Shown piece by piece: positions 4,750 through 40,943 of a stretch of DNA of 64,000 bases; position 1 is the first letter of the stretch; the number at the start of each line of letters is the position of its first letter. The stretch is from Bolinopsis microptera. Its lineage: Eukaryota > Ctenophora > Tentaculata > Lobata > Bolinopsidae. Location: the NCBI RefSeq assembly GCF_026151205.1, contig NC_087082.1, forward strand, positions 2,756,001 to 2,820,000. Reading direction: 5' to 3'. A model generated the notes under the pieces. That model was not told where the DNA came from and searched no databases. It worked only from the letters and a program-made list of their open reading frames with translations. Both the position numbers and the translations under genes were made by a program.

Positions 4750-7700
4750 ATGGTTGTGCTCGCAGCGCTGATCCTTCAACTAGCGATTTCAAGCTCTGCT
4801 AGTGACGCTGATCTAACACCTCTGGAAGATGACGTCATAGAGCGGGGTCCTGGTATGTGTGTAACGTATGGGCTGTGCCAGTTGAAGGATGGTTTACCTT
4901 GTGTAAATAATACTGCTGCTCAGCCAGTTCCTGAAGACGAGACGGTCAGGGAGAGGCTCCACAAACTTTGTCCTCATTTAAGGTGAGATTCGATCGCCCT
5001 AATGTTTTGAATTTTATAAAAAAAGGCCCTGCGGGTATGAAAGTAACTTCACTCGACGTATTTTTGAACACCTATTCTGAATCACATGGAATCACCGTAA
5101 AAACCTAAGTCACGTGATAGTTTTTGGGCGAGTGAAATAATATGAGCCGAGATTATGCATTATGACCGCCCAAGTAAATCATCTCCCGCTTTCTCCCAGT
5201 CCCTTTTTAAAACTACCTTGCGAGACATATTTAATTTTAAATAGTACGAAAGTCGGTTGTTTTTTGAAAAAAAAAACAGTATATTTTCGGACTACCAAAA
5301 TTTAGTTCAACTTCACCGTCATTATGCATTATATTATTTTCCCCAAATTATTTTTCGCGTATTTTCCATAATTATGACTTTATCGATTTACTATCAATAC
5401 AGTAAGTTATAAATATGATTTATATAACAAATGAACACTAGTATTCGATCACGAATTGCTTAAAAAATGATTTTATAAATTTACATAGAATTACAAATTC
5501 TATAAACGTCGAAAGACGAACGTCAGGTAAGTAATATTTATACTAACATATTATTAATTATGTTATAAATACGAGTAATAAACTAGTTAAATAATAGTAC
5601 TTATTGATAAAACACCAGATTCCGAACTAGTTAAATAAATTAAAATGGGTCTTGCTCTGGAAACTTTATATTTAATTTTATTAATTTCCTCAAATATTAG
5701 TTTTAATTTATTTTTAAATAAAGATATGAAAAAAAAATCCCCAAATACCATGATGATGATTTAATTTGGGGTACGAAATTTGGCGGGTTTCGGAAAAATC
5801 CCCATATTTTTCATGTTCCCAAATCATTCAGGTCACCGGAATTATGTCGAACATAAATATCTCTCGTAAGGGGTCGTTCACATTTTACGTAATCAGCTGA
5901 GGGGAGGGGGGTTTCCAAATGATTACGCTAGTATAATTTTGATACAATAGCTATGTCTAAAACTGATTACGGAGGGGGAGGGGGTACATAAAATTGTCCC
6001 AAAATTGATTACGTAATAATATGTGAACGACCCCTAAGGTATACGTACTATAACTTCTTCCATTTTGCCTTTTTAGTGAATATTTTAAGCAACTATAATT
6101 TTAACAACTTCGTTCCAGTTCAGCTGATAAAGTGTGCTGCTCCGCTGACCAGATAGATTATCTAGGAAACTCTCTAAAAACGGCCGAATTATTCCTCAAA
6201 TCATGTGACCATTGCTATCAGAACTTCAGATCTCTGTTTTGTGATATAGTCTGCAGTCCTAACCAGGTATTTACGTGTGATAAAGATTAAATACTAGCTA
6301 GTGTCTGTACTAATCTGCATGATTTATCGAATGTAAGGGAGGTCTTTAGAAATAATCCCAAATCAGCGAATTTATCTTGTTTTGATATAGTGAGGCCGGG
6401 TATACAATAGTTGCTACACCTTGTAATTGTAAAGTATATACAATATATACCTCTCGTACACGCGCGCGATCAAAAGGGGTTGCGGCGTGTGTCAATACAA
6501 TAGTAACGTTATTAAATGCTATTGAATAGTGAATGCTAAGTCTCTTTATATCCCCTGAGAGGCTCTGAGGCAAATTCAGCTGAATTGATTCCAAATCTCC
6601 TCAGTCTGAGTTTGTAAATATAGAGGAGAGTGAGAAGATCGAGGAGAACTCTCCCCACGTGACCAGATTTAGCCACTATTTGAGTGAGCAGTACGCCACT
6701 GATTTATACGGAAGCTGTTCGAAGTACCCTTCAGTTCTTTGTGGTCCGTTTTCATGGGGTTGTGACAGGAAGAAAATGTTTGCCTTTCTTGGTGAGTTTT
6801 ATCTTGAAAGCTACGAATCATCCATATTGAAGTGTTGCTTCATTACTAATTACTGACTAACATTTTTTAAATATAAGTCCCTTTAAGATTTAACAATGCA
6901 ATTAATTCTGGGTCCCCAGTTCTATTCACGCTGAAGTTCGAACTTCTGGTTGCATCATTCATTACTTTACATTGTTGATAATATTGCGATATGACCAGGT
7001 GACAACAGTTACACGGTGTTAAAAACAGACTACGTTATCGGGGATGATGACGTCATGCCCTTTGTTAGAGCACCTTCTGATCATCTCATACCTTGCAACG
7101 ATAACACCAACTGGGACAGGTTTGTTAATTCTCATGGTTTGTTAACTCTAACAACTGATAGATTTTTATATCATTTTCACGAGTTTTAACCAAGCCTATT
7201 ATATTGGGTTATATTTTGATTATATTTGTTGAATGTCTATGTGGTTACAATCATACGATGGCAATGAAATTATATGATAAAAGTAAAACCACAAATACCC
7301 ATATTATGCAGTTATCACCATATTTAAATTTTTCCTTTCTTTCAACCGTGTATAGTCAGTGTAATAAGCGCCAAGCGCGAGCACAGAACTTTTTTTTCCG
7401 ATTTCGATAAATTTGGTACCAAAAGTTGTCTAAAAATGTGAATAAAACAAATCCACCGTGTAGTAATTTTCGCTAAAAATGCTACACAGCGCTTGTTCGC
7501 CTCGCGTGCTTTTTTCGCGCAAATTTTTACTTTTTGACCTATAACTTTCACATCATCGAGACGAAACTTTTAGTACTACTACTAATATTTTAAGATTTAA
7601 AGGAAAATTATTTTCAAAATTTTTTAATCTGAACACAAGGGTCCCCCCCTTGTGTGAAATTTGAAAAAAATTTTGAAAAATCTCATTACGATCCTGTAAG

Positions 7701-8265
7701 TGTAAGAATTATTTCAAAATATTCAATATTTTAGGAGTTATAGGCATTTTAAGCAATAAATTACCCACACTCTTGCAATGCACAGGAGGCCTACATACAG
7801 CTCGACGTTATCGTGCTACACGGTGAATTTTCATTATTCACAGTTAGAGGCAACTTTTGGTACCAAATTTATCAAAATCAGAGACAGAAAATTCTGTGCC
7901 AACTCATGACGCTTATAACATAGACTAGTATTTAGTATTCAATTTTTTGTCTTTTTTAAATTCTTATCACAAGTTTGACAGACGATAACAGTGATTCAGT
8001 TAAAAACTGTCACCAACTTAAAACAAATTAAATATTTCGAAATATAAGTTATTACCAAATTTGTTATCAACTGAAACAAGTTAAATAACTCCACTTTCAG
8101 ATGCACGTGTTATTGTTGCGCGGCGTCATGTGATGACACAAGTGGTCAGGACGGGTTTCAGCACAAAACTGGAGTCAGTCTCTCAACCACCCTCGCAACT
8201 GTCAGCCCTACTGTGTACAAGGGGGCACTAGGGTTACAAGTCCCAGCTATAAGTGATATCTGCAG
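4750..8265 (+). CDS. NPC1: NPC1 exons 1-5: signal peptide and NTD repeat 1
   Basis: Exons are 4750-4982, 6119-6266, 6605-6791, 6999-7119 and 8101-8265. A hydrophobic signal peptide ([18 protein letters not shown]) leads into the family opening GMCVTYGLC, then PCVNNT, LCPHL, VCCSADQ, the Cys-x-x-Cys helix (SCDHCYQN) and CSPNQ. The back half has YGSCSKYPS and ends in [10 protein letters not shown], matching the CSCQDC-type end of human NPC1 NTD. The residue at the human Gln79 position is Gln (CCSADQ), so sterol 3-hydroxyl contact is plausible. The ATG at 4750 is chosen because it starts the signal peptide. Confidence 0.9.
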
Positions 8266-11200
8266 GTTACTGGGGGGAACTTTTATGGTTCTATATTCTT
8301 AGTTTACGTGCAGGTGCTTCTCGATTTTACAGCTTTATTGAAATAATTATTCCTCATTATCACAGACTTGGAAATAATTTAATCTAACATCTCGAAGCAC
8401 TTGTAATGCTCGCATATCCTCAGGACTACAATTTCCACACACTGCCCCCACCTGATCACCGCCATCAACGAGACCAGCTGTTCTGACATCACTCTCGACA
8501 TGGCCCCTATTTTCTCCAATCTGAAAACCATGTTTGGTTCCTGTGGCAACTGTCATGACAACGTACGGGTACTGCTCTGTGAGTACCTCTTCTCCCCTGA
8601 CCAGTCGAGGTTTACTAATGTGGAGAGTAAGGAGGAGAAGGGAGAGGAGACACTCATTACAGGTCTGACTTATGAGTTTCTTAGCTGTGATTTTATTAAT
8701 CCTCCTCTTCTTGCTGAAAGGGGTTGTAGGTTTAGGTTAGAATTGTTCTACCTTAGATTTTTATCGGTATATTTTAAGTTTTAACGTTGTTGATTTCATA
8801 TTCTCTAGAAATTTCTGTACACCAATTTATTGTAACGGTATAATATGAGAAGTGAGAACTATACAGATAATGACTTTAATATGTCATTAGTTCTCTTAGT
8901 AGCAGTGCCATTGGTGTACAGAAAATTCTAGAGAATATGAAATCAACAACGTCAAAAACGTTCCTCGAGAGTGTGCCTCCACACCATATTCAATAATGGT
9001 ATATTTTAAACATAAACTGACGATTGAACCTACAATTACCACAGGAATTCAGTTGGTTCTGTCTGAAGAACTAATTAACAAGACATACAATTCTTGCCGG
9101 GATGTAAGGACCTTTGTTGAGCACTGTAAAGGGAAGAGCTGCTCCCTTCAAAGCATACTGAATCATGTTCTTGATGGAACTGGTATGATATACTGTTAAT
9201 AATACTATCACCTGTTTTCACCCAGTTACGGTTATATCCTGGTTCATCTACTCGAGATTTGATCTAAAAACAGAACACACTAACAGAAACAGAAACAGAA
9301 ACAGAACACACTAACAGAAACCTTCAGGTGTACTGGTGCCCACTATCAAGGAACACGAAGCTTATCCTTATGAGAGTCCGAGTATTGATATATTCAAGAA
9401 GTGTAATGTAGGCACTGGTGAGTTCCCCCATATACATTATACACCCCTATACTGTATACCACTTACTTCTTTCTAGGCCTTGTCTTTCTCTTAGTGTATT
9501 AAATGATTGTATTCACATTACTTGCAATAGTTTGAATATGATTCTATGATACATTTGGAAAGGGATCTCAGATTTTACCATATGTTTGATCGATTCCTAA
9601 TCTTATCCTTGATCAACACCCCTCTGTTTATTTTCAGAGAGTGAAGGAAGGTGTAGCTGTGAGGACTGTTCAGCGGCCTGCAAAGTTGACGACGGTCACG
9701 AGCACAAACCTGGACACTGTATTATTGTGGATAACTGTGAAATGGAGTATTTCATGGTGGACGAGAAGGATGCTTTCAAACAGGTCGATATTGAGTTTTA
9801 TTTCTTGAATGCTTACTTCTAGTGGTGCAGTTTTATTTTCATGGAAGTTTGGCGTTTTTAATAGCTATAAAATGTGGTGTTTGTACGAATTGCAAGATTG
9901 AGGCCAGTGGCGAAATACTGTAAAGTGTAGATGCGACACGTAGATCAGTAGCTCTTTTTAACACGATTAATTTCCCAACTAACAGGACCTCAATTCCACT
10001 CTACTACAAGAATTGTGTCCTCTTTACAGCTCCACTGAGATGGGCTGCTGTACTGACGATTCTTTACAGTTCTTAAAATCTCTGATGGATCCCATAAAAG
10101 AGGTAATTCTGCGATTTAAGCTCGACATAATATGATGAGGGATAATTTATTTTTCATTGGGTTTTTTAAAGATGCAACTCTTAGACTGTGCACATCACAA
10201 GGTTTGACAGTGTTAGGAATTTAAAAACTGTAGTTCCTAACCCCTGTCTCTACTTGCAGGCAGCCTCCTGTGCGGTGTGTAAGGAGAACATTGCTGCACT
10301 GTTGTGTTCTTTGACTTGCTCAGGTGATCAGTCTGTATCCTTGGAGATTGCTGCTGAATCTGATCCCAACTGGTGTGATCAGGTCGACTCTTTAAGGTGG
10401 GTTTACTTGTAATACTGAGAGGAATATTCCGAACTATCCTGTAGTTTTTTAATCGAATCTTTTTTATTGCTTAAATTACTTAAAAATAGATCCTTTCAAA
10501 ACCAATCGTGATTCGTGCTCGTTGGAGTCGTTCTGCTCCACTATTAAAATCCAATGAAATAATGAAGTTAACAATAACTGTAATTCGTAATACTTGAAAT
10601 AATCAACTTTAATCAGGTTTTATGCCGAAAGAGACTCGATGCAGAAGATTCTCAGTTCTTGTCGGGACGATGAAAGCTTCTTGGGATCACTTTGTGGTGA
10701 TAATACCGACCAATGTCATCATTTAGAGACTTTTACTCAAAAGCTTTCGGAAAAGGTAAGTTTAGATTTCACGACACAAAACATTATCGACAACCTAAAA
10801 ATTCGAAATCCATACAAATAAAGCATTCGCAAACACTGAACAATCTCCCCCCAGTTATCAACGTCAGATCGTACAATGACACTGCAAATGGAGAAAGTGT
10901 ACAATGACCTAGAATCCCTCTCACTCTCCCCTCTCCCCTGTAACTCACCCTCGGTTCTTGGGGACCAGGGATGCTCGTGTGAAACATGCACTGATTCCTG
11001 TCAAGTAAACGCAGCTGATGGGTACTATCATAGTGCTGGCGTGTGTGCCATGTACAGGTATTTTACAAATACAACTTAAGGGGGGGGGGGGGGCTGACCA
11101 TATTTGATATTAGCAGTGAGCCCCCCCCCCCCCCTCCCCCTTCCAATATAAGCTGCCAAATTATCAGACTTTGTCCCCAGTATAATGTATATCTTGATGA

Positions 11201-14200
11201 GCATGGCATGGCTGTTAATACGCACTCCAGCACGTACTTTGTCCCCAGTATAATGTATATCTTGCACTCCAGCACGTGTAATCTAACCCCTGTTCAGCAC
11301 GTGCAAGAACAAGGAAGGAAAGGAGGCACCTTGTGTGGGGAACACACGAGCTAAGTACCTGACTGACGAAGTGAGGAGTAGTTTGGAGGAGCTGTGCCCC
11401 TCTTTCCAGCCTGGACTGTTGGGGTGCTGTGATGGGAAATCTGTGGAGGTTATGAAGTCTCTTCTGGGGCTAGCTGGAACGGTAATTTGGTACAATTGTC
11501 GTGTTACCTTGACATGGTTTATTTCATGTTGATCATGAGAGACTTGAAATTGTACAATGTACTCTTAACATGAATGATCTAATTTAAGTTACTACGGTTT
11601 ATACTCAACTATTGTTTTAACTTTCAGTTGATAAAGTGTCACAACTGTTACAACAACCTTGCTAAGTTGTTCTGTAACGTCTTTTGTCACGCAGATCAGT
11701 CAACTTATCTCAGCATTCTGGAGAAAGTTGCTGATGGTGATTCAGACTTTTCTGTCTCCAAATTCAGGTGATGATAATTCCTGAGGTGAAAGTTACTCTT
11801 GTTTGATTCATGAATGCTACCATTATTCACCTGTTATATTTAAAAAGTAAATAATACCAGGCATTTTCTCAGTAGCTTTAGATCTGTGTTTTTATCAAAT
11901 CTGTTATCGAATATCACACAGATGATAAGATTCTGTCTGCAACGGCCGCTACACAAAGTAATTTCTATAAACTCATTAAAGCTATACATTGATAAAATTA
12001 ACGCTGCATATTTCATCCCAATATTTACGTCATATTGCCACATGTTGAAAGACGTTATTTCGTAAATCATCTGACTGTGAACCAAAAACTGTGACGTTGT
12101 TTCGTTTGTGGACGGGTAAAAGTTAAAGTCATTGCCATTAATAGAACCACGAGAAGACAAAGTTGACGTATCAAAAATTTGCAGACTAGTTTCATATTAT
12201 AATCATTATAATATTCTTTCAACACACCTATTAACTAATTTCATTGTAATTCCAGCTACCACGTGAAGGAAAGCACAGGGAAGGAACTGTACGAGTCATG
12301 CCTGAATGATAGAGGTGGTATCACTGACCTCATCTGTATCACCAAGTTTGGGAAGGGCTGCACCAGCTACCTTGACTTTATCCACGCTATAGGCGACAAT
12401 GGAGTCACTACATTTGATATCCAGTTCAAATTTGAAGTGGAAGATCCGTTCGTGCTAGATGATCCCAAGTTGCTTTCTTGTAATGAAGAGTTTAATGGTA
12501 GCTATACAGTACTGCCCATTCAAATTTTTGGTTATTTTCTAATGTCCATGTTAGTCCAAGTAGAATAAAAATGCAACTTATTTCAAACTGTTAGGCCAGA
12601 AATTTAACTGCTGTTTTCTATAACTGTTTAAAAAATGTATGATTGTCCAGTATTATCATGCTAATCAAAACAAAATTCCATTCCATTTGTTGTTATCTTG
12701 TAACCTCTAGGTTACTCGTGCATGTGTGAGGACTGTCCAGCCGCATGTGTTAACGACTTCGACGACCACTTCGTCCACCAGCAAGGAGTATGTCTGATAA
12801 ACAGTGAAAATATTTCTAATGGAACAAAGTCGTTCAGCGTTCAGAGCTCTGAACTCATGGAACAAGTCTGTCCCGGTAGGAAACCTTTTATTTAACTTAT
12901 TTTATTTATTTGTTTTTTATTCAACTTTTGTCGAGGTCTCGTAAGGTTTCTGTCTCCCGGTTTGAACGATCTGTCACACTCTTTTAATGCAATTTTACCT
13001 TGTTATTATCAAATAATGAACGCTAAATTCTTCCAGACTTACGTAATTTGAAAGAGGTGTGTTGTACCAGCAAAGATCTTGAGTTGATCCAGAAAGTGCA
13101 CGAAGATCATCAGAGCACACTCGGTAACTGTGGAGCATGCTACAATAACATCAAGCGGTATGTGAACTTTTGTTTTATATTATGAATCATTACCAAGAAT
13201 TTAAGTTCGATCGAAAGCTTAGTATAGCTTAGTATAGCTTAGTATAGCTTAGTATAGCTTAGTATAGCTTTAGAAGTTTATTTTAAATTTGGTTAAAATG
13301 AAAGTAATATTTGTATAGTTTTTTCATATTTTCTATTCTAGGTACATGTGTCACGTAGCTTGTAGTCCAGATCAGTCAACTTTCACTACCATTGCCATGG
13401 ATACGAATACAAATAAAAAACAGATTAACCATTTCTTGAATGACAAGTCTACGCTCGCTGATTCATGCGCTTTTCACAACGAGCCGAAAGAACCCATTAA
13501 TGATTCTCGGTTCTATTCTGAAATCCTGGGATTGTAAGTTTCAAAGTTTTATTAAGTGTCAACATATCATGATCAAGTCATAAGAAAAATTGCATTTTGT
13601 ATGCATCAAAATGCTTAATTGTTTTAATCAATACGGTTTAATTTCAACAAAGTGGTCTCCCAAAACGATATCAGCATACCTGTTATATATTAAATAAATT
13701 GTTAATAATTAACTTATATTAAGGGGGGGGGGGGGGGGGGTTCACCCTGATTATTTTGTGAAACTTGGTTTCGAGATAGCAGTTGACCAACAAACTAAGG
13801 CCGGTGACCGCACTTTTGAGGGGGTCCCGGACCCCAACCGTCAAACGGTGCCCGCGGGGCAGCCACACCCATATTTGGTCCAAATTAGGCCCAATTTAGC
13901 CAAATACCCTGAACATGCCCAAAACCCAGATTTTAGGTGCTCTACTTGTAGCTAGTAGTCCCCTAAACTCGTATATGAATTTTCATCAAGATTAGACAAA
14001 AAATGACTGAGTTATGAGCCAAAAACCATATGCCCATATTTGGGTATACGCACCAAATTTGATCGATTTTGGCCCATAAATTGGTCAAATATCAATATTT
14101 TTGAATGAAACCAACTTTATATGGAAGGTAAGCCTATACAACACATTTTCTATGATTATCAGCTCAGTATCTACCTAACTGTGGATTCTATGTTCAAATA

Positions 14201-17200
14201 ATCGCAAAAAATGAACAAAATTGCTCATATCTCAGTTCGCGATATTTGCGAAACTGATTTCGCTCAAAACAATAGAACTCAATAGGGTTTCAATATTTTG
14301 ACATGAAATTTTCAGAATCAACGTAGAATCGCATTTCGACCTAAAGTTTTAATATGGAATTTTGAGTTAGGCCTTTAAAAAAATTTGGCGGCCAAATTCT
14401 GAAAAATACCCGGCAAATTTCAGAATTTGGCCGCCAAATATATTGAGTTCTATTGTTTTGAGCGAAATCAGTTTCGCAAATATCGCGAACTGAGATATGG
14501 GCAATTTTGTTCATTTTTTGCGATTATTTGAACATAGAATCCACAGTTAGGTAGATACTGAGCTGATAATCATAGAAAATGTGTTGTATAGGCTTACCTT
14601 CCATATAAAGTTGGTTTCATTCAAAAATATTGATATTTGACCAATTTATGGGCCAAAATCGATCAAATTTGGTGCGTATACCCAAATATGGGCATATGGT
14701 TTTTGGCTCATAACTCAGTCATTTTTTGTCTAATCTTGATGAAAATTCATATACGAGTTCAGGGGACTACTAGCTACAAGTAGAGCACCTAAAATCTGGG
14801 TTTTGGGCATGTTCAGGGTATTTGGCTAAATTGGGCCTAATTTGGACCAAATATGGGCGTGGCTGCCCCGCGGGCACCGTTTGACGGTTGGGGTCCGGGA
14901 CCCCCTCAAAAGTTCGGTCACCGGCCCTAGTTTTTTGGTCAAATGCTATCTCGAAACCAAGTTTCACAAAAAAATCAGGGTGAACCCCCCCCCTCCCCCC
15001 CCCCCCCCCCCCCCCCCTTAACTAAATTTTACCCCTGCACTTTCCTAAAAGTAACTAAACCCCTCAGTCTGATATCCGAGCTGTACTCCGGCTTCTCATA
15101 CTCCGTGAACGACAAGAACTTTAGGACAGACGGAATCAAAGCAACGAAGCCAAAGAACTTGAGGAATTGTTATGATGATGGGGAGGAAAAGTATGCTTTT
15201 GTTATCATGATTATAATTATTGTAATTAAGATCACAGTCTTATAGGTAGTCGAGCATAAAACTTGTATTTTAAAAGTCGGGAAAGAATTGAGGGGCATTC
15301 ATAAAAGTAACCCGGTGCAATACGGTGAGTATATACTCACATTGTATGAATGACCATTGACCCCTAAAAATTCTTTCTGATTATCTTTTTGCACGAAAAT
15401 TGAAATATTTTCTTTCTATGAATTTAGCTTATTTCGCCATTAATTTACATAATCGAAATCTAGGTGCGATTGCGGTCACTGCGAAGAAACGTGCACTAAC
15501 GATAACTACCAACACTCTGAAAACCTTTGTCTTTTCTACGATACTTGCGAAGGTTTTTGGGATATATCTATATTTACAAATAACTTGATCTTATCTACCT
15601 GGGTTCTGAATACTTACATATTTTCAACGTACATTAATACCTCACCTATTCTACCTGGGTAAATAATGATCCCATCACAATATCTTAAAGAAACATCTCT
15701 CCTCTTCAGGTGACTTTCCGTGTGTTAACATCTCTCCTCCTCAGGTGACTTCCCGTGTGTTAACAGCACAGCGCCCCGCCCAGTTTCCCCATCAGACGAG
15801 AAGTTCTACAACGACCTCCTCTCCACTTGCCCCCAGTACACCAATAGTTCCGTGTGCTGCACCCACAGTCAGCTAGAGAGCTTTTCTAATAGGGTCTCCG
15901 CAGCCAAGGCTATCATTGGGGGTTGTCCCGCCTGCTATGCTAACTTTGTTAATATTTTCTGTCATCTGATGTGCGATCCGAATCAGAGTGCGTTTCAACA
16001 GGTGGTTTCTGAAAGTAATTTGTATATTGAGGGGGAGATAAAGGTGGCCGATAAAATAAGATATCATGTGTCTGATAAATTTGCTGTGAGTAAAGTTTCT
16101 TATTGTATATATTAACTTGAAATGAAAGCTCGATTTTCGGACTATTTTAATCGAAAGTAGTGCTAAAATTGAACAAATTAAAAATTGTCGCGAGTTTTGT
16201 GGTTTGATTTTAAAGAGGCCGTGAATTTTCGGACACGCGGCTGTAAACTCATAAACTGTGTCTTGAAAAGATCATGAATTATATTTTCAGCAAGCTACTT
16301 ACGACTCTTGCAAGAACGTAAGATCAGGCAACACAAAAGCCATTAACCTGATCTGCGACTCTTTAGACTGTGATCTGGATAATTTCTACGTTAGTTTGGG
16401 AATCAACAAATACACTGATCTCAAGGTCTTCTATGAGATATACAGTCCTGATAGTAAGTCCTGATAGTAACCTGGTTACTTAGTAACTAACCTAATAACC
16501 TGGTTATTTAGTAACTAGCTGAGTAACCTGGTTACTTAGTAACTAGCTTAGTGTCTTAGTGTTCAGTCCTGATAGTAAGTGACAGATACTCTCCGATCTG
16601 GACGATTAAAGAAAATGTCTACATAAATACGATAAATAACGGCAAATAACGACAAATTCCCTATCTTAAATTATTAAGTATGTAATAGAAAACAAAATCA
16701 TTAATGGTCAAAATATCACATCTCTTTCTTATATCTGATTATCCAGTAATTCAACTTATCTGATTTTATTTCAGGTGAAAAGGGACAAATGTACAGCGAG
16801 ATGAACATCAGCCCATTGGAAGGAGTCAGAATTCACCGCTGTAATGATACTGTAGATGGTAGGTGTACACTATACAGCCCACTACTATAAACGAGGAATT
16901 TAGTGTTAAGAGAGGCAGAAGATTGGATATTACTGTCCCCTCACCCCTAGTCAGCTCTTCGCCGTTAATTTCATACCCAGATATCAAAACCGATTATTTC
17001 CAACTGTTTCTCCACTTCTCGAATTTTCAGGAGAAGCCTGCAACTGTGACGACTGTCCTGCATCCTGCGAGAAAGATGACGACGACGACAACAACAACGA
17101 CAACAACGACAAACAAAGAAACTACGACAAATACACCCTCCCAGCAGCTGGGATTGCGGGGTTACTCCTCACTGTTGGGCTACTCTTTATGGCACACATT

Positions 17201-20200
17201 TCCTCTGAAAGAGAGGGGACCAGTACAGATTTGGTCCTGACTAATCTGTCTGCCAAGAGTTCGGCTCCGTTAGCTGAGAGCGACAATCTGTACAACAAGA
17301 TGTACCCCACTAAGTACTCTGACAAGGCCAATAAAGATGGTGGTGACGCAGAAGAGGTCCCCATCAAGGTCGTCCCCGAGAGCCCTCCAGTTAATAGAAT
17401 TCAACTTTTCATCAGGTTTGGATTCACTTGGTTCTACTTCATCTACATCTATAATTATGATTCAATCTGCTCAGAAGTCTCATACGTGCTGCATATTTAC
17501 CATAAGAATTATTTATAGTCTGTAAGACACAAAACTCTCTCAGGACCGTTTTCAAGTGCTGGGCTAACCTGGTGTACGAGCAGCCCCTTCTAGTCCTAGC
17601 AGGATTTGGGGTGTTTGTAATGGGCTGCAGTGTCGGACTCATCTTCTTCAGGATTACTTACGATCCTGTGGAGCTGTGGACTACTCCTACTAGTCAGAGC
17701 AGGATTAATAAGGTTACTTAGGTGACACATCGTTTTTAAGTACGGGCTGATAGCAATCTGCCGTCTGCGTGCACTGTAGTTTGAGCCTTTGAGGGTCCTA
17801 ATCAGCTCAAATAATCAAATATATAAAGGAGATGAACTATTAATTGGACCTGCAAAACTGCACGGGACGTCAAAGATATGTAAAAGTGTTGATCTATAAT
17901 CTGGAGAACTGGCTCGTTAAGTTTTATCGTAAAACGAGTAAATCTAATCTTATTTCAGGAGTATTTTGAATCAACGTTCGGAACGCCATACAGGGTGGCT
18001 CAGTTGATATTCTCCGAGAAAGTGCCTGGAACTTCGTTTGACGAGAATGGAAAGACATACAGCTCTATCCTGAGGTTTTGGGCGAGTCTTTGATTATTCT
18101 AAAATTGAGATTTAAGATAACTCAATAAGCTGCTATACCGTATTAACCTGAAGGCATGTTAATTGTAATCGCCAGTTCACCTCGTATTGTCTGAATTTTT
18201 TAAACGATTCAGTAAAAGCGTTGAACCATTTCTGCCATGATACATGTGAAAATTACCGTAATGAATCCAATTAAAATTATCCACTTTTTAAGGGAGGAAA
18301 ATATGAAACAGGTTTACCATGTACAAAAGCAACTCCTCGAAACGGTATCAGCAAGATCACAGATGAACAAAACAATCAAATTGTCTGATGTTTGTCATAA
18401 ACCTCTTGGTTAGTCTTAAATATAAGCTATGATATCTGCTCGATTTTTAACATCAATTCTTATCCCCCAAGAATACATGATAACTTATAGTTATGATAAG
18501 GCAGTTTTTCAAAAGGACCATTTTTAGAATTTCACAAATCTTTACAGAAACAAACTCCAGGAATCCACAGTAATAATGCTACATTCTTCAGGATCTCACG
18601 ACTTGAAAGAGCCCGTTAACAACTGCATCATCCTGTCCCCCTTCCAATGGAGGTTCAGTGAGTACAGTGGAGCATTCTTTGAGGACCAGACTACCCCCGA
18701 CCTGCCCACTTATCTGGACTTGTTCGAGCGTTGCGGTCAGCTGGACTTGTCACCTGACTGTTTCGGCTCCTACCGGGGGCCAATTATGACTGATACGGTG
18801 TTTGGTAAGTAAATATTGTAATTTGTGGGTTCGTTTTATACCATTATTCATCATATTAAGTGAGTCCGGTGATGCAAATTTGTGTTCTTCTTTGGAAGGT
18901 GAATTTTGAAAATTCGGCTTTCCTCAGAATTTTGAATTTGGGGGATTTCCGTTTATGCTCGAGGTAAGGTTTATAGAACTAGTAGGCGGATCAATATTTA
19001 ATTCTACTCTAGGAGGGTATGACAATATTTAATTCTACTCTAGGAGGGTACGACAGTAACTCCGACTCAAATCTGGAATATCTCACCAACAGTCGGGCAA
19101 TAATCCTAACCTTTGTGATAAGCGGGGAGGCGGTCCACAGGGACCAGGTTCTTGCGTGGGAGAAAGAGTTTGGGATCTTCATGAAGGAGATCAAGATGGA
19201 CAATCTCACTGTCAGCTACAACTGTGATCGTGCTTTAGAGGTAAGCTATCTGTGTCATTTCAGATGCTATGTTGGTTCTATCACGATCAATAGCTTTACA
19301 GCCGGGTTTTGAGGACTTTTTTACTGTGCATAACACTATACAGTGTGTATACGGATGAGCAGTCTTTTTACAATGTTAAACTCCAGATCCACTCACTAGC
19401 TGAAGTAGCTCTGATACATCGGTTTATAACCTGTAAGACTGGCCAGTGGCCTTTTACTATTGAAATTCTTATATTGTGCCGTAACAATTAATAATTATCC
19501 AGCGCTGGATAGCGACAACTAGCGCTGGATGGCGACAACTAGCGCTGGATAGCGCTAGTTGTCGCCATTCAGCGCTAGTTGTCGCGTTTTGACTATCGCA
19601 AAAGAACCAAAATTAGTAATTGTTTTATTAACAACAAATTAAAACTTAGTAATTGTTTTATTAACAACAAATTAAAACTTAGTAATTGTTTTATTAACAA
19701 CAAATTAAAAATTAGTAATTGTTTTATTAACAACAGGACGAACTGGATAGAGCATCACACGCTGATATCATGACTATAGTTATCAGTTATATTCTCATGT
19801 TTGTGTATGTCAGTACTACTCTGGGAAGACTGGCTTACTCGCCTGCCGCTTGCTTCATTCAGTCCAAGGTACATTTCAGGGGCTCTTTCATGTTGGTTTA
19901 TGTACAAAGTGGCTTATTGTAAAGATCAAGAAATTGGCTTAACTCATTTCTCATAGTATGATTATTTTATGCAAGCAAACCTTCAATTCGGCTTTACGTC
20001 AAGTATCAACAGATGTCCGTTCTTAAGTTAGATTAAAAGTCTTCACTCTTCCTCGCTTGATGTAAAAAGAAGAGTTATCGGATTGTGCGCCCTTAATTAC
20101 CCCCTATTATTACAGGTATCTATAGGCCTGGTTGGAGTTACTCTTGTCCTCATCAGTGTTAACTGCGCTCTCGGTATGTCCACTGGACCATTCAATAGGG

Positions 20201-23200
20201 ACTCTTTGATAGATTTTAAACTTGAATATGAAACTGTTGTGTAAATCATACTGTGAAGAAGTTGATTCTCACGGAATATTTCTCCTGCAGGTATAACATC
20301 CTACTTTCAACTTCCTGCCACACTGATTGTTATTGAAGTGGTTCCTTTCCTAGTCCTTGCTGTTGGGGTTGACAACGTATACATCTTAGTTCAGGTATAT
20401 CTTATTAGCTAGTTTATATATAATATATACAGGGTGTCCCAAAAAAGACTACCCAATAAAAAACCTTTGATGGGCAAAAATTTAGGTAGATCTTTCAGCG
20501 CAGAATTACTTTAGAGACTTTTAAAATGAGAGAAAATCGAAATGTCTTAAAATACAACTTAAAATTAGCAACTTATTATACATACAAGTCCGTCCTCGAT
20601 TTATATAGACATTTATATATTTATTTATATATCTTTATATTAAGACTAAAGTAACCCGTGCCTACAGCCGGGACTTCGCTGTCGCAGTTGAAATGCAAAA
20701 ATATAAACCCGCCTATTATATTCGAAAACACACATTACATTTTCGTAGTTAAAACGGTGCGAAAGTATATATATCCACCAGCGTGCGCTTTTTCGCATAG
20801 CGGGCTCTCACCAGCCCGCTGTCAAAGGGCCCGATATCTCTACAGCCCGCTCATGATATAGCCCGCTAACAAGTGACATTTAATTTGACCAGTAGCAATA
20901 TAGCCCGGAGTTCTCTAAAATATTTTCAGTTTCTGTATCGTCTCCATGTGAAATTCCTTATTACACTGACTATATTATATACATTTTATTTTTGTCTCCG
21001 GTAGGGCTGCTCATGCAGCTCGTGAGCAGATGACATGATACTTTGATTTATATCAAAGTTATTATAACACACTACATAATACACATCAGCACTATAATCC
21101 CCCTATATTATTGATATTCATCGTCACTGACATTACATTCATTATTCCCACGGCCCAGGAATGCAGTGCATCTCCAGCCCCTATATACGACACAGCCCTT
21201 TATGATTGGCTTACATTGAACACGTGACGTGTTACCATGGTTACAACAATTAGTGGCGACCTTTTCTATAGTTGACTTTTATACAAGCTCCATTGTTTAT
21301 TTATAAAATTATATATTAACTGTAATACGCCCGCTGGTGGATATAATCCACATCACCTCGACCCGCGGGCGGAAAAATCGTATAGCACTCGGGCCCGATG
21401 GGCCCTCCGTGCTATACGAAAATATGTCCTCCTCGGGCTAGCGCCCTCGGGGACATATGAAATATTGCACGCGCGTGCGCGTGCAATATTTTGTTCCGCC
21501 CGCGAGTCTCCGGTGATATGTATATATATACATATCACCGGAGACTCGCGGGCGGAACAAAATATTGCACGCGCACGCGCGTGCAATATTTCATATGTCC
21601 CCGAGGGCGCTAGCCCGAGGAGGACATATTTTCGTATAGCACGGAGGGCCCATCGGGCCCGAGTGCTATACGATTTTTCCGCCCGCGGGTCGAGGTGATG
21701 TGGATTATATCCACCAGCGTGCGCTTTTTTACATAGCGGGCTCTCACCAGCCCGCTGTCAAAGGGCCCGATATCTCTACAGCCCGCTCATGATATATCCC
21801 GCTAACAAGTGACATTTAATTTGACCAGTAGCAATATAGCCCGGAGTTCTCTAAAATATTTTCAGTTTCTGTATCGTCTCCATGTGAAATTCCATAAGAC
21901 AACAACTTACAAGTTACTTAGAACTATAGTTGAAACCGGTTTAATTCAATTTCATTAACGATGAATTCAATTGCAATAATCGTACTGTGAGCTAATTAGT
22001 GTAGTTTCTGTTTATTGTAGTTTTCTGTTTAGTGTAGTTTCAGCCCCTATATACGATACAGCCCTTTATGATTGGCTTACATTTAACACGTGACGTGTTA
22101 CCATGGTTACAACAATTAGTGGCGACCTTTTCCAGAGTTGACTTTTATACAAGCTCCATTGTTTATTTATAAAATTATATATTAACTGTAATACGCCCGC
22201 TGGTGGATATAATCCACATCACCTCGACCCGCGGGCGGAAAAATCGTATAGCACTCGGGCCCGATGGGCCCTCCGTGCTATACGAAAATATGTCCTCCTC
22301 GGGCTAGCGCCCTCGGGGACATATGAAATATTGCACGCGCGTGCGCGTGCAATATTTTGTTCCGCCCGCGAGTCTCCGGTGATATGTATATATATCCACC
22401 AGCGTGCGCTTTTTCGCATAGCGGGCTCTCACCAGCCCGCTGTCAAAAGGCCCGATATCTCTACAGCCCGCTCATGATATAGCCCGCTAACAAGTGACAT
22501 TTAATTTGACCAGTAGCAATATAGCCCGGAGTTCTCTAAAATATTTTCAGTTTCTGTATCGTCTCCATGTGAAATTCCTTATTACACTGACTATATAATA
22601 CATTTTATTTTTGTGTCCGGTAGGGCTGCTCATGCAGCTCGTGAGCAGATGACATGATACTTTGATTTATATCAAAGTTATTATAACACACTACATAATA
22701 CACATCAGCACTATAATCCCCCTATATTATTGATATTCATCGTCACTGACATTACATTCATTATTGATATTCCCACGGCCCAGGAATGCAGTGCATCTCC
22801 AGCCCCTATATACGACACAGCCCTTTATGATTGGCTTACATTGAACACGTGACGTGTTACCATGGTTACAACAATTAGTGGCGACCTTTTCTAGAGTTAA
22901 CTTTTATACAAGCTCCATTGTTTATTTATAAAATTATATATTAACTGTAATACGCCCGCTGGTGGATATAATCCACATCACCTCGACCCGCGGGCGTAAA
23001 AATCGTATAGCACTCGGGCCCGATGGGCCCTCCGTGCTATACGAAAATATGTCCTCCTCGGGCTAGCGCCCTCGGGGACATATGAAATATTGCACGCGCG
23101 TGCGCGTGCAATATTTTGTTCCGCCCGCGAGTCTCCGGTGATATGTATATATATCCACCAGCGGGCGTATTACAGTTAATATATAATTTTATAAATAAAC

Positions 23201-26200
23201 AATGGAGCTTGTATAAAAGTCAACTCTGGAAAAGGTCGCCACTAATTGTTGTAACCATGGTAACACGTCACGTGTTAAATGTAAGCCAATCATAAAGGGC
23301 TGTGTCGTATATAGGGGCTGAAACTACACTAAACAGAAAACTACAATAAACAGAAACTACACTAATTAGCTCACAGTACGATTATTGCAATTGAATTCAT
23401 CGTTAATGAAATTGAATTAAACCGGTTTCAACTATAGTTCTAAGTAACTTGTAAGTTGTTGTCTTATGGAATTTCACATGGAGACGATACAGAAACTGAA
23501 AATATTTTAGAGAACTCCGGGCTATATTGCTACTGGTCAAATTAAATGTCACTTGTTAGCGGGATATATCATGAGCGGGCTGTAGAGATATCGGGCCCTT
23601 TGACAGCGGGCTGGTGAGAGCCCGCTATGTAAAAAAGCGCACGCTGGTGGATATATTAGCGAAAGTATATATGAGCAACTAATTGATATTTCATGCACCC
23701 GGGTGTGAGCCAGTGCTCCCCATCGCACATCGGGGCATGTAATATCAATTCTGCTTTCCTGCCAAATTTGGCTCGAAAGTGTGATAATATATTATATCAT
23801 GGGCACTGGGGCAAACAGGTCCGATGATTAATGTGCTGCCATTCTTTAGACCAATTCAATATTGGTAACAGTACGGGTGAACTACCTGGCCATGACCAGG
23901 GTGGTTATAGGCTGGTGGAGTACTGCGTTCTAAAATGTTGAAGAGATACATTTGAATATTACAAATATTCTGATCATTTCCAGTTCAGATAATTTCTAGC
24001 TCGAAGCAGATAATGGCAAATTAAATGGCAAGGAAGATGAATACTGACTAAGAACTATAAAGCAGACTATTAACTATACTCGATAAAATTCTAAGTCAAC
24101 GATTACAAGTTGCATTGATTAAATCATTCTGAAATAACAGACAGTCAAGAATCAAAACGGACGATAACATTTTTGATGTGAATTAGGGCGTGTGGTGTAT
24201 AATGTGGACTGATAGATTATAGACACTAATTATAGCTCCACAACTCTATTTAAATACAAGAACTAGGAAATACTTTCACCTTATCGCAGATACACATTTA
24301 TGATAAGGACTCTGATGTATTTAATCAACACTTGAACGGATGTTCTATACATTGTATATTTTCGGTAGTAATGATCAAGTATAAAATTACCTCACACCGA
24401 TTAATATGCAGGATGTAATAATTACGTATCAAACGCGCTCGTGGCGGAATATTCTAGACGCCAATAATTACAAGTCCCATTCTCGATAAATATATTAATA
24501 TTCAATGCACTACGTATCACTTATGAGTAGAAAGCAAATTGCGCGGCATACAGCATTCACTGTGTCATAAATGTGATGAGCACGTGAGATCTTAATTGTA
24601 CGTATTGTATCTTCGATATCTGAAATACTAACTCATCGAGAGCTATATATAGCGTGAACATTATAAACATAAATAAGTTCGACATGTCTAGTTTGCTTTG
24701 GTGACATTTATAACTAACGTTTGATCAAATTCTGCTTTCCCGGCCAAATTTGGCTCCAAAGAAAGTGTGATAAAACATTAATCACATGTCTTCTCATGCG
24801 ATATCAACATTTTCAAAACTCGGCAAGCCTCGTGATTGAAAATGTCGATATAACCCTCGGCAAGCCTCGGGAAATATCGAAACTTTCGCTAACTCGGCAA
24901 GCCTCGTGGGCGAAAGTTTTGATATCGCATGAGAAGGCATGTGATAAATGTATAATATAACATAATATAATGTATCGTATAGTAATACGATACGCGGCAT
25001 ATTTCAAAGTGTAGGGTACTTTTTATACATATTTCCTTGCTCTGTAGTCTGCTATTACTTGTTTTTACACAGAAGAACTAAGAATAAATCATACAACCCT
25101 CCCTAGGGGCTTCGTGACTATTTCACGACCTACTTTGTAGAATCCCTCCCATTCCTCACAGAATGAGTCTTACACTCACGATCGAGTTCTTCAGTTGTCT
25201 TATGTGACTTTTGTTACCTGAGTAGTCTCCCTTGACGATTGGTCACATTTCAGTTTGCAAGATGAAAAATGTATATTTTCGTTAAGTCATAGCTACTCTG
25301 TTGACCGATTTTAGAGTGCTGTTAATAATGAAAATTTTATAAGATAAAGTATTTGATAAAAAGAATTTTAATAATAATCATAATAATCTGTTACTCAGCA
25401 AAGTGGTCACTTTTTGACGTAACAATGACATTATGTCATTTAGTCATGGATATTACATGTCATGACGCAGGTTGCAACCCCTGTCATGACAACGTAATAT
25501 CTATGACTATAAAAAATATAAATGATATAAACTAAATCACGGGCTTTTAACGCGTCGTTCATTTAGTTATTTGGTATCATATATACCAAACCAATTTGTT
25601 CTGCCAGCCAAACAAGTCTACTCTGCAAATATAATTTTTTTTGTTTTGTTTGGGGACCGGTACACCGGCCAATGTTTACAAAATCATATGATACATAAGA
25701 GTATAATTTTATTTAAAATACGTGAATATGAGAATTGGAAATTATGATGTAACCTTTTACATTCATTCATAAAAAATAAAAAACCAAAACTTTCAAAATT
25801 AAAACTTGCATACGGTATAATGATACCGTATCATGATTTATTAACATAGTAACAAATAAAGTGACAAATAATTTGATTTGATACGACAGATGATCACACG
25901 CACTGTTTTATAAGCTACTTGTGTCGGATTAACGATAGTGGGCAGTGCAGATTCGATAGTATAGTGCTCTGTATCAGTATAGTGCTCTTGTGACTTGTTT
26001 GAAGTTAATCTTTTGAAGTTATTTCTCAATTATTCTATTTCGTTTCTGTTCTCTTTTCTTGGCTAATGTTAGTGAGGATCGACTTAAGTATATCAAATAT
26101 TACATAGAATTTGAAAGACGTTTTCGGGATTGTTCAACTATAATCTTTTGCAGAATGAGCGATTTGATTAGTAAAGCGTGCGGCTCCTGTAATAAAAAAG

Positions 26201-29200
26201 GACCAAATTTACTGACATGTTCAGTCTGTAAATCAGCTTGGTATTGTAATGTTCAATGTCAGAAGAAGGACTGGAAAAGTCACAAACAGTGCTGCAGAAA
26301 GTTCGGTACTGAAGCACAAAAGGGGCATGATGAAACAGGGGAAGAACAGACTTCACGTACTTGCCTAGATAGGGTGTGCGCATCTTGTGGCAAAACAGGG
26401 ATAAAGTTACGAATATGTGAAGCTTGTAAATCAGTGAGATATTGCAGCTCTGCTTGCCAGTTTAGAGATTGGGGGACTCATGAAAAAGACTGCGGAGCGG
26501 TAAAAGTTTATCCGGAGATTTATTTCTACGAGGGAACTATGGATAGAAATTTCGTAACCGGCAGAGTCACCACACCCGAAAGAGAAAATTGTGAAAAGTT
26601 TATCGGTAAGGAAATGAACATGATAGTAAAGATTCAAACCACTCTAGACAAGCAAGACTTAAAGTCATACATGAGGGTCTACAACGAATTTTGTCACTAC
26701 GATGTTAAAATAGGAGTGTATGACAAAAACTATGACATCATCTATGAAAAGGTTCTTAAAGATGGACTGCCATGTGTTCAGAAACATCCTCTCTTTAGGA
26801 AACTATATTGTAAGGCCCACCTTAATCCTGACTTTTCTCTGGATTTATACCTCAACTGCACCTACAGCATAACACACTGGTAATATTCTTCTTGGTATGT
26901 ACTTGAAAACGGGACTTGTAAAAAGAATTTATTATTATTATTATACCAAATTCTCATATCTTTCATAACATAATTTGATATTTACTGTGTATTTTTTCTC
27001 TGGCTGAATCGTTCACCTATCACGTAAGCATAGGGGAGGGGGTTTGGAAAAGCTTACGGAGCTATTTGTAAAAGGGCTTACGGAGGGGGCGGGGGTGCAG
27101 GTGGTGTCAAAAAATTGCCAATAAAACATGTGGCCTTAAAATTATTATTTATCTTCATTCCAATGATGCTTCAAAAACCATTGAAAAACTCACGGGCTAA
27201 GGATCACACTATATATCTTGATAAAAGGCTGAATTTGTGGAAATCTGGTGACTTAACTGCTATAATCAGTGAAGGGCGTGAGATTCAGAACCGACTTGAA
27301 GAGGCACGTAAAGCCCAGGAGAGATCCCTTGCCACCAGGTTTGCACAGCTTATGATCCACGGCAAAGTATCAGCAGCAACCAGGCTCATCAACCGACAAT
27401 GTGGAGGACTGTTGGATGTTGATGAAATGGTCATTGAACAACTAAAGGAAAAGCACCCCTCTGCTAAGTCTGCAACAGATGAAATTCTGATCACAGGTGA
27501 TAAAGCAGCAGTTGAAGAAGTTATATTTGAAGCCATTGACTCAAAATTAGTGAAAAAGGCTGCTAAGCTGACATCAGGCTCAGGTGGCCCAACGCTTGTA
27601 GACTCTGAGTGCTGGCAACACATCTTATGCTGTTGTGCTTTTAGAAATTCCCAGGATCTTCTCGCTGAAGCAATTGCCAGATTAGCCAGGCGCATATGTA
27701 CTCAAGATATTAATTTCCAATCAATAGCAGTGCTTACAGCTGGTAGACTGGTTCCCCTAGATAAATGTCCAGGCCTTAGGCCAATTGGTATTGGTGAGAT
27801 CTTGAGACGGATTATTGGGAAGTGTGTGATGATGGTGTTAAAGAAAGATGTTCAGAAGGATGCAGGACCACTTCAAACATGTGCAGGTCACGAAGGGGGA
27901 ATTGAAGCAGCAATACACGCTATGGCAGAGGTTCATGATAACAAGGACACGGAAGCCATTTTGCTAGTGGATGCTTCCAACGCATTCAACGCTCTCAACA
28001 GGACCGCTGCTACCAACAACATGCAGTACGTTTGCCCACCACTTGCTAAATACTTTGAGAACACCTACAGGGAACCAACAGACCTCTATGTAGCTAATAG
28101 CAAGGGAGTGATCATCAAGAGCAGTGAAGGTTTCACTCAAGGAGACAATATTGCCACTGGTGGATATGCTCTTAGCACCAAGCCACTTATTGACCGCCTG
28201 CGAAACATTATCAAGCAAGTGTGGTTTGCAGATGATAGTGCTGCTGGTGGGAAATTGGAAGCAGTGTATAAGTGGTGGAAGGAGTTGCTCCAAGTAGGAC
28301 CCAAGTATGGTTATTTTCCTAATCCATCTAAGAGCATTCTAGTAGTAAAGGACCCTCAGATGATTGACCAGGCCAAGGCACTGTTTGGAGAGTTCAATAT
28401 GCAAATAACATCAGGTACCAGGCATCTTGGAGCAGTACTTGGCAATACAGGTGTCAAAGATCAGTACATTACCGATAAGGTTCAAGGGTGGTGTGACGAC
28501 ATCAAGATGCTAGCTGATATTGCAGAATCTGAGCCTCAAGCAGCCTACTCAGCCTACATCTCTGGCATCCAACACAGATGGAAGTTTGTTCAAAGGACTG
28601 TGCCCCACATCTCTGAAGCCATGGAGCCGCTAGAACATGAGATAAGACAAAAGCTCCTGCCAAAGATGCTGGGCAGGGAGATCTCAGACTTAGAAAGAGA
28701 CGTGTTAAGTCTACCAATAAGATTGGGAGGATTGGGCATTGGTAAACCCCACGAAGAATGCCACTCTGAGTATACAGCCTCCAAGCTACTCACCACTGAG
28801 CTAACAAAAGCAATAGTGGACCAACAGGAAGTTTACACTGCATCCAGTAACCTCACCAAATCGGGGAAAGAAATGATCAAAACATTGAAGAATTCCGAGC
28901 TCCAAGCCAAGTTTATTGCTATAGCTGAAAGATGTGGCACCTCCTCTAAGAGAGCATTACTAGCAGCAAAAGAAAAGGGAGCGTCCATTTGACTTAACAC
29001 ATTGCCACTTCAGCAGTATGGCTACACTCTGAACAAAGAGGAGTTTCGAGACAGTGTCTGCTTACGCTACAGTTGGTGGATACCAAACACTCCCATCACC
29101 TGTGGATGTGGGAAAACAAGTGATCTTGACCACCTTCTCACCTGTAAGCTAGGGGGCTACGTGATAATGACCCACAACAACATCAGAGACACAATGGCAA

Positions 29201-32200
29201 ATCTCCTTCGTGAGGTATGTCATGATGTAAAAGTTGAACCCCAGCTACAGAAGGTAAATGAGGGTGACTGCCTCAACCCCAAGACTATAACAGGTGACCA
29301 AGCTCGGCTTGATGTATCTGCTAGAGGAGTTTGGACTCCATTTGATAAGACCTTTCTTGACATAAGGGTTTCACACCCCAATTGCTTATCAAACAGGACA
29401 AAAACTCTTCAAGAAGTATACGAAGAGAACGAGAAGGAGAAGAAGGACGAGTACTTGGAGAGAGTGTTGAATGTGGAGAAGGCTACCTTCACCCCGGCTG
29501 TATTCCTCACATCTGGAGGAATGTCTAAAGAGTGTAAGCAGTTCGTCAACAGAGTAGCAGACCTCATTGCAAGAAAAAGGAAGGAAAGGTACTGCGATGT
29601 AGTAAGACACGTGAGAACTAGGATAAGATTTGCAATGTTGAGAACAACTCTTATTGCTCTACGAGGGTACCGAGGAAAGAAGGTGGACACCAAACGTGAG
29701 ATTCAGCTATCAGAAGTTTCATACAACCTCATCCCTGCCCCTATAATGGAGTAGATCATGTGTTTTGTTAAAATGCTTTTGAAAAAATTATTGGTAGCAA
29801 TGAATTGTGCTCTGGCAATTGCAACACTTAAAATTTTATAGTGCTCTGCCAATTGCATCACTTGATTTAATTGAATGTATATATACTGTTTGACACACTT
29901 TTCACTAGAAGTAAAAAATAAAAATAAAACATGTAAACGATCTCTTACAAAGTAAATGTACCCCTCAATTAAACTGACTTATACCTGCTGGAAAGCGCGG
30001 CAACTATCAAGGAACTTGTTGACGTCAGGTATCAGTACGGACAGGAAGTTCTGAAGTTCAGTCAGCTGAACAGTGGTTCCCGGACCAGGTACGGACAGTT
30101 TCTGCTCCACAAACGTCACCACTTGCTGTCTGAATACGGTCATTGAGCCGGACATATCGTCTAGTACCTGGTGTGGGTTTAGGGCTTACGGAGCGGGGTC
30201 TAGGGCTTATGGAGGGGGCCGGCTGGTGAGTGGGTGGGAAGGGCGTAGGGTCAATGTAACACCCCTTAAAACTCTAGAGATTAAGATGGAAAAATGAACT
30301 TCTTATGGTACTGGTAGCAGCATGCGTTAATTACGATGATTGTAAGTTTTAAACGTTATCAGGTCGGCCCATGGTGATATTTTCTTGCGCGTGCGAGAGA
30401 GGATCCCTGATGTCCTTTCTAGTTGTAATCTCCGGATTATGATTAATCACTCAACACTCAACTATCACGTGACTTTTCTAACCATTCTCTAGGTGGCCCT
30501 AAACGACTATTCGAAACCCTAACCCTCTAATCTGATCCCAACCAAATCCCTATTAAGAGTGTTGTACTCTCCTTTCACGAGTGTACACGTCATTTTAGAC
30601 TACTAGTCCTTCTTCCTATGGTTTTATTGGCCTTTTGTTCTATACCTCATTACACACGGTTAGCAAGCTGTCAAGGAACCCTCTTAAAGTGCTTCAAGCA
30701 AAAGCTACTTCTAACACAGTGGCTTTATTATGTCCTTGCCATGAAGATGGCGAACTTGCTGGCGTGCGTACCTCTCCTTAAAGCTTTTACAATAGGACAC
30801 GGCGATGCTTCTGTTGGCTGTCACCAGCTCACGTACCCGAGATATATGCGCCTGCAATAAAGCCTGAAACTGATGGAGGTCTCCACAGGTTTTTGCTTCT
30901 TTCTTCAGACCTTCAAGGATAATCGGGACCTTTCTTGGTTTATACTCGTTAGTCGTGCTACCAACTCTAAAGGTATCGTCTGTCTCTTAGTACCAAACTC
31001 CATCTTCCTATCAGGAACAGGGATTTTAACGAGATCCTCCAACACTGTAGGATGTGGAGTAGACGGAGGGAGAGGAGGATTATTTTCCTTTGTGACACAG
31101 ATAATCTCAAGGTACTTCGGAGGTGGATCGCCTCTGATAGTTCGAATAATCTTCACAGTAACAGGAAAATTAGGTTTCGGACGTTGGTATTCTATCTCTG
31201 GGGGGGGGCCTAATTTTGCCCTATTTTCATATTATTTTAAATTTGTGGCTACCTTACTCTGTCAGTACACTTACCAAGGAACATGTGGGCCCATTAAAGC
31301 AAGAAAATCAATGACTATCGCATAAAAAAAATCCATAATTTATGCAAATTCGGCCTATCGTCCATTTTTGGGTTTCAGGCCTGCTGGGGAAATGACCATT
31401 TGTGAGCACCTCTTGGTACTTTTAGTTTTAGCATCAACTGAGGTGTTCAGGAGTAAGATGAGACAAAAAGAAACAGTTTGCAATCAAATTCATGACAAAA
31501 GGCCCAGCGCTCCGAATGGTGGACGAGCCCATAATTTGAGGACTATTTCGGACAATTTTTGACATTTTAAAAATGAGGACTCAAAATGGTTTGCTTAAGT
31601 TTTCAGAAGTCACATACGAATCTCCCAACCCTCCTTGGTATAGTAAATATACTAAGACACGAGTACCATTAAAGGAAAGTTGAGGAAATGAGGAGGGTTT
31701 CTCACTGGGGCGTCTTTTTTGGGACACCTGTATATCATCAGCTATAACCACATGACCATAATTTGCACGAAAACAACAGTTTATAAACATCTAACCTTTC
31801 TTTCCTCTCAGTCTCTACAGAAGAAGCTGGAAGAGAGAAAAGAACATAAAAAGGAACCGGACTTTTTGAAAGACCTATTGAGAGACGTTCTGGAAGATGT
31901 GGGTCCCAGTATGCTCATGAGCTCAACATGCCAAACTGTGAGTACTGCAGAGTGGGGATATGACATAGCCGATAGGAAAGAGAGCTGGAGGAAAATATTT
32001 AGTTAGATCTACGATTTATTTGGAGGAAAGAGAGCTGGAGGGAAATATTTAGTTAGATCTACGTTTTATTTGGATTAAAATATTAAATAGCAACATGAGT
32101 TATTGTTATATCAGGTTGCATTTTCTCTTGGAGCACTGTCGACAATGCCGGCAGTGCAGAACTTTGCTTGGAATGCAGCGCTGGCAGTCTTCATTGATTT

Positions 32201-40651: not shown

Positions 40652-40943
40652 TAATTTGTTTCGGGAAGTTAAAGATAATTTACTTTGGGCTAACCTTTTT
40701 TCGATTGACGCGCTTTTTTCAACAGATTTTATTAAAAGCGAGTGAAAAATAATCTAATGTGCTTTCGTTTATTATTAATATTAGTATAACTATACAGTAG
40801 CTATTAAATCGCTTTTATTATTTGTTCCAGAGGGTACAAACTTTCTGTATATGTTTTTCTAATTTTTAAAAGTAATTATACTTTTCCCTCTTGGTCTTAA
40901 TGACAAGAAGAAAGGAACGGGCAACATCTCCCAAGATCGGGTT
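40652..40943. other. NPC1 3' flank
   Basis: An ATTAAA at about 40731 is the best candidate polyadenylation signal for the NPC1-like gene. The right part probably belongs to the Penelope-like element's 5' region. Confidence 0.4.

Follow-up and report, generated by a model that had tools for sequence, protein, structure and literature searches.

A Bolinopsis microptera NPC1-family gene predicted to encode six tandem N-terminal NPC1_N domains

The 64,000-nucleotide stretch of the ctenophore Bolinopsis microptera analysed here (NCBI RefSeq assembly GCF_026151205.1, contig NC_087082.1, positions 2,756,001 to 2,820,000 of the forward strand; hereafter the window, numbered from its first letter) contains a gene of the NPC1 family, and at the level of sequence we show this locus to be one intact gene in which the predicted luminal or extracellular N-terminus has expanded from a single NPC1_N domain to six in tandem. 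To our knowledge, known NPC1 proteins each possess one such N-terminal head domain (hereafter NTD). Our survey of the titles and abstract openings of the open-access literature found no description of an NPC1 protein with more than one, consistent with the suggestion of an earlier note on this DNA that the architecture is undescribed. The gene indicates that the NPC1 NTD can be multiplied in evolution. With six covalently linked NTDs on one membrane core, it would allow capture, relay and hand-over to be probed directly, and with them the route that sterol takes from the NTD into the membrane tunnel.

Gene model and domain architecture

The exon chain was assembled by a dynamic programme working on codon and splice scores. 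Its inputs were open reading frames (ORFs), splice signals and a codon table derived from a different NPC1 gene in this genome, and the exon ends were then adjusted manually with the aid of phase and of NPC1 motifs. The resulting gene comprises 41 exons on the plus strand (4750-40651), all with GT-AG borders, consistent phases and no stop, and its coding length of 7083 nt corresponds to 2361 codons including the stop, or 2360 residues. The same totals and consistent phase had been claimed in the earlier note, and because they were known to us beforehand the rebuilt chain is a check, but not a blind one. The modelled frame had a better codon score than the other five frames in 22 of the 25 NTD exons and in 34 of all 41, a comparison that is partly circular in that the same codon table helped in the choice of exons.

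Six repeats, numbered R1 to R6 from the N-terminus, are encoded by exons 1-25 (4750-17415), followed by the membrane core with its transmembrane segments (TMs). The elements of the gene are listed here with cysteines and the pocket residue Gln79 numbered as in human NPC1:

4750..4803, plus strand: signal peptide, residues 1-18, from the ATG at 4750; hydropathy peak at residues 1-19, cleavage site estimated
4804..8131, plus strand: R1, residues 19-240, exons 1-5; NPC1_N 135.5 bits; 18 canonical Cys and one extra; Gln79 kept
8132..9681, plus strand: R2, residues 241-455, exons 5-9; NPC1_N 71.3 bits; lacks C25, C31, C42, C74 and C113; Thr at Gln79
9682..11001, plus strand: R3, residues 456-669, exons 9-13; NPC1_N 62.8 bits; lacks C42, one Cys gained; Ser at Gln79
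11002..12748, plus strand: R4, residues 670-889, exons 13-17; NPC1_N 116.8 bits; all 18 Cys; Ser at Gln79
12749..15494, plus strand: R5, residues 890-1087, exons 17-21; NPC1_N 56.7 bits; lacks the pairs C31/C42 and C177/C184; Gln79 replaced by Asp
15495..17068, plus strand: R6, residues 1088-1315, exons 21-25, adjacent to the membrane; NPC1_N 136.8 bits; all 18 Cys; Gln79 kept
8101..8265, plus strand: exon 5, spans the R1/R2 boundary within a single open frame
9638..9783, plus strand: exon 9, spans the R2/R3 boundary
10855..11057, plus strand: exon 13, spans the R3/R4 boundary
12711..12875, plus strand: exon 17, spans the R4/R5 boundary
15464..15552, plus strand: exon 21, spans the R5/R6 boundary; weak flanking splice scores (-1.4 and -2.1)
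17031..17415, plus strand: exon 25, last part of R6, an Asp/Asn-rich linker (17069-17137), TM1 (17138-17194) and the next loop
17544..40651, plus strand: exons 26-41, NPC1 membrane core with the middle luminal, sterol-sensing and C-terminal luminal domains and the remaining TMs, placed by Pfam and alignment with human NPC1

Searched against Pfam, the full 2360-residue protein matched NPC1_N (PF16414, gathering score 27 bits) over six stretches (526.7 bits, E 1.1e-158), and each of the six repeats taken singly also exceeded the cut-off, with scores from 56.7 to 136.8 bits, so that the six NTD-like repeats of the earlier note, the middle ones included, are recognized by the profile. In the single-repeat searches R5 and R6 each gave one further, chance-level match to another family. 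The full protein also matched NPC1_MLD (111.9 bits), Sterol-sensing (142.9 bits) and Patched (82.6 bits) above their cut-offs and ACR_tran below its cut-off, with NPC1_MLD and the sterol-sensing domain located behind the NTDs as is usual in the family, and the membrane part aligned with residues 334-1249 of human NPC1 at 568 bits. The whole protein passed the NCBIfam model for NPC1 (TIGR00917) with 1031.8 bits against a cut-off of 1016.5, the membrane part alone scoring 735.1, and these matches bear out the NPC1 membrane portion that had been proposed from the letters.

The linkers between the repeats are short, Asp- and Asn-rich and of similar make-up, and in the alignment invariant framework residues are common to all six repeats. 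A His-x-x-Gly motif opens R2-R5 after the linker, and not R6; a similar His-x-Pro-Gly-x-Cys is located near the NTD start of two paralogues in the same genome (C1 and C4, see below). The signal peptide at the N-terminus is the sole one seen in the protein, and between residues 30 and 1315 the hydropathy maximum is 1.28, with no strongly hydrophobic stretch before TM1 (residue 1339).

A gene model drawn from genomic DNA alone, with some weak splice sites, could be the product of several genes or pseudogene pieces wrongly joined through exon choice or assembly. However, in each of exons 5, 9, 13, 17 and 21 a single open frame runs from the C-x-C-x-x-C...C block that closes a repeat into the beginning of the repeat after it, and exon 25 links R6 to TM1; these exons join the repeats to each other and to the membrane segment, and the repeats are therefore not separate genes, a possibility that the earlier note had raised together with that of an assembly error. 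All 41 exons are free of stops, and the window has no N. Self-comparison of 4750-17415 revealed intron-internal repeats and, where exon 22 begins, a duplicated stretch of about 39 bases, with no DNA similarity between the coding parts of different repeats. At the protein level the repeats are 21-31% identical, in an alignment that also took in NTDs from NPC1L1, NCR1 and the paralogues. Such divergence is too great for assembly stutter, and from it we conclude that the duplications which would have given rise to the six repeats are old. Two intron positions are common to R3 and R4 in the same phase, one before the Cys-x-x-Cys (phase 0) and one before the following helix (phase 2), while inspection of the exon table and the repeat alignment indicated that most other positions differ between repeats. 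On the strength of the bridging exons, the open frame, the absence of N and the lack of exon-exon DNA repeats, separate genes, pseudogenes and assembly error were rejected, and wrong joining seems to us highly improbable.

Cysteines, pocket residues and relatives of the repeats

The canonical 18 cysteines of the NPC1 NTD form nine disulfide pairs in human NPC1, as given in PMC6163316 and PMC7228765. R1, R4 and R6 retain Cys for all nine, and the set is incomplete in R2, R3 and R5. The earlier note had ascribed to every repeat a double-Cys helix, a Cys-x-x-Cys helix and a closing block, which needs correcting in that the double-Cys is Ser-Cys in R2 and the opening cysteines are absent in R2 and partly absent in R3 and R5. 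In all, ten canonical cysteines are lost (25, 31, 42, 74 and 113 in R2, 42 in R3, and 31, 42, 177 and 184 in R5), eight of which make up complete pairs: 25-74 and 31-42 in R2, and 31-42 and 177-184 in R5. Under a model of random, independent losses 0.94 complete pairs would be expected, against the four observed (P 0.0008, 400,000 draws). R2 and R3 each possess one Cys outside the canonical set, and the total is 19 in R1 and even in R2-R6 (14, 18, 18, 14 and 18). Taken together, the paired losses and even numbers suggest that the predicted folds have been maintained. Since the yeast NCR1 NTD has eight disulfides, not nine (PMC11512107), the full nine are not strictly required in an NPC1_N domain.

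In human NPC1, Asn41 and Gln79 bond to the sterol hydroxyl (PMC5438648). The Gln79 column of our alignment, from which human NPC1 itself was absent, was set four residues behind Cys75, and it holds Gln in seven of the 11 rows with a residue there (R1, R6, the C1, C4 and C11 paralogues, NPC1L1 and NCR1); R2, R3, R4 and R5 have Thr, Ser, Ser and Asp, respectively, and a fragment from C12 has no residue at that position. Sterol binding by all six heads, as the earlier note had it, is thus unsupported, the sterol-contacting Gln being present only in R1 and R6.

A frame-wise search of the genome for the family returned eight matches; it saw only three of the six repeats of the window gene, because exons split the repeats, and none of the C4 NTD. 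Three other NPC1 genes, at C1 (locus L001), C4 (L005, L008 and L009) and C11 at 3.75 Mb (L002, L006 and L010), have NPC1_N and an NPC1 core, with one NTD each in the DNA fetched as against six here, a count obtained by tblastn with E limits of 0.01, 0.05 or 0.5 together with ORF reading, and a lower bound in that a diverged NTD may escape. The family match at C11 reads over two stops, which we took for an intron. In addition, C12 holds two near-identical R1-like NTD fragments (94-99% in pieces) at 3.62 and 3.55 Mb (L003, 3751-5370, and L004), which have a signal-peptide-like start, lack the second Cys of the Cys-x-x-Cys and have no membrane part that we found; they may represent an NTD-only gene or a decayed copy.

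The gene content of the genome fits a ctenophore, on the evidence of one gene: a glutamate receptor whose best PDB match is ML032222a iGluR, named for a Mnemiopsis gene (407.5 bits, against 243.5 for the best vertebrate-type kainate receptor). A second glutamate receptor gene matches kainate receptor 2 best (195.4 bits) and ML032222a less well (181.6 bits). The glutamate-receptor ligand domain gave 32 matches in the genome, and TGF-beta gave 14, which indicates an animal. Searches for COX1 and for nuclear receptor domains, zf-C4 included, returned no match, which is no proof of absence.

In a tree of the NTDs, R6 grouped with the C4 paralogue (support 83) and with C4 and C11 (support 82), and R1 with the C12 fragment was split from the rest at 96; most inner branches had support of 50 or less, and the paralogue NTDs were joined by hand and are incomplete. 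The simplest reading is that R6 would be the original NTD and that R1-R5 were added in front, the remaining branches having too little support to show in what way.

Possible roles of R1-R6

Published models cited in PMC7215871 have sterol passing from NPC2 to the NTD and then through a tunnel to the sterol-sensing domain. By a modest preference, we read the protein as a six-NTD sterol transporter in which R6 is an ordinary NTD, R1 a second capture head, and R2-R5 an arm and/or domains with altered pockets. R6, next to TM1, would most likely take up sterol and pass it via the luminal domains to the sterol-sensing domain, and R1, at the far tip with its pocket Gln and all cysteines, would probably act as a second site of capture. 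Because Gln79 is replaced in all four, and cysteines are changed in R2, R3 and R5, the middle repeats are more likely to be a long arm and/or binders of other sterols or lipids than four equal cholesterol pockets. Overall, such a protein would reach further and have additional sites of capture, all supplying the one exit at the membrane. What speaks for this reading, as far as sequence can, is the open 41-exon model with its six NPC1_N matches, linking exons, one signal peptide and TIGR00917 score, and further the paired loss of disulfide partners, the even cysteine numbers of R2-R6, the Gln79 pattern and the grouping of R6 with paralogue NTDs.

It is also conceivable that R2-R5 are degenerate spacers free of ligand, or an adhesion or receptor stalk, and that the protein may function at the surface of the cell. 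The lower NPC1_N scores of R2, R3 and R5 and the loss of the pocket Gln and of cysteines would fit this proposal, as would the C-terminus, which ends NNGFYL and has none of the lysosomal dileucine tail of human NPC1. On the other hand, the cysteines were lost mainly as pairs and their numbers stay even, which suggests maintained folds, and we hold this proposal to be possible but doubtful. We take the dileucine tail to be a trait of vertebrate NPC1 and not one that defines the family.

A bucket brigade is a further alternative: each of the six heads would bind sterol or a related lipid, and cargo would travel from head to head as far as R6 and the tunnel in the membrane, with the changed pockets of R2-R5 tuning affinity or specificity. 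The fact that all six repeats pass the NPC1_N cut-off and have the framework residues in common is consistent with this, as are the short, similar linkers; however, Gln79 is replaced in four of the six, and NPC1 with a single NTD is generally known to function without a chain. We think a brigade of this kind unlikely. A lineage-specific six-NTD relay for sterol or lipid with diversified pockets, in which R1 would serve for distal capture, R2-R5 would have altered specificity and R6 would deliver next to the membrane, would be an intramolecular brigade such as we know from no NPC1, NPC1L1 or NCR1 protein, and it strikes us as similarly improbable.

Several observations weigh against the transporter reading that we prefer. 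The gene model rests on genomic sequence, with weak splice sites at exons 21 (on both sides) and 27. The opening of R2 hangs on an exon end whose donor scores poorly (0.2), and its C31/C42 lie near a hand-chosen exon edge. C113 of R2 and C42 of R3 were lost without their partners, and the losses in R2, R3 and R5 may be shared by descent, contrary to the independence that the disulfide test assumes. Gln79 alone would be thin evidence for sterol binding; the Asn41 position is Pro in R1, R4 and R6, as in yeast NCR1, and Ser in NPC1L1, and it is therefore not a general marker. In the core, Gln at residue 1840 (exon 34, 31812-31937) stands for Glu742 of human NPC1 (CQTVAF as against SETVAF), where the C11 paralogue keeps Glu, and transport itself could thereby be altered. 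Finally, NPC2, the usual donor of sterol to NPC1, was not found by a Pfam search of the genome, which does not show that it is absent.

The nearest known systems have one NTD and not six. Human NPC1 (NTD structures 3GKH and 3GKI; full length 6UOX and 6W5R) has the same order of NTD, middle luminal and sterol-sensing domains, but its linker is proline-rich where that of the window gene is Asp/Asn-rich, and the tail here is short. Yeast NCR1 (NTD 9F40) is the best match of R4 in the PDB. NPC1L1 (NTD 3QNT), the best PDB match of both R1 and R6, starts with the His-x-x-Gly-x-Cys seen in R3, R4 and R5, and mediates intestinal cholesterol uptake (PMC3078110).

Other features of the locus

Just downstream of the gene (40863-42985) lie two long ORFs of 416 and 293 residues, stop to stop, with no Pfam match. 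The 11.4-kb intron 33 (20395-31811) carries, at 26017-29754, two successive ORFs that we regard as a retroelement: the first matches the MYND finger twice, and the second has a weak match to reverse transcriptase (26.5 bits, below the cut-off of 29.6). Automatic chains of 53 and 31 exons ran through this element and through low-complexity DNA, and the exons placed there were dropped.

Two further features touch splice acceptors. The duplication of about 39 bases (15692-15765) provides exon 22 with two acceptors, at 15710 and 15745, of which the latter keeps the NPC1 frame. At 39246-39617 a 37-base unit is repeated in tandem about ten times (97% match); the copies include the acceptor and first bases of exon 40, which gives this exon about ten candidate acceptors in a row. 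Intron 19 contains, at 13723-15003, a 563-base inverted repeat (98.4%) that is bordered by G and C runs and probably represents a fold-back element.

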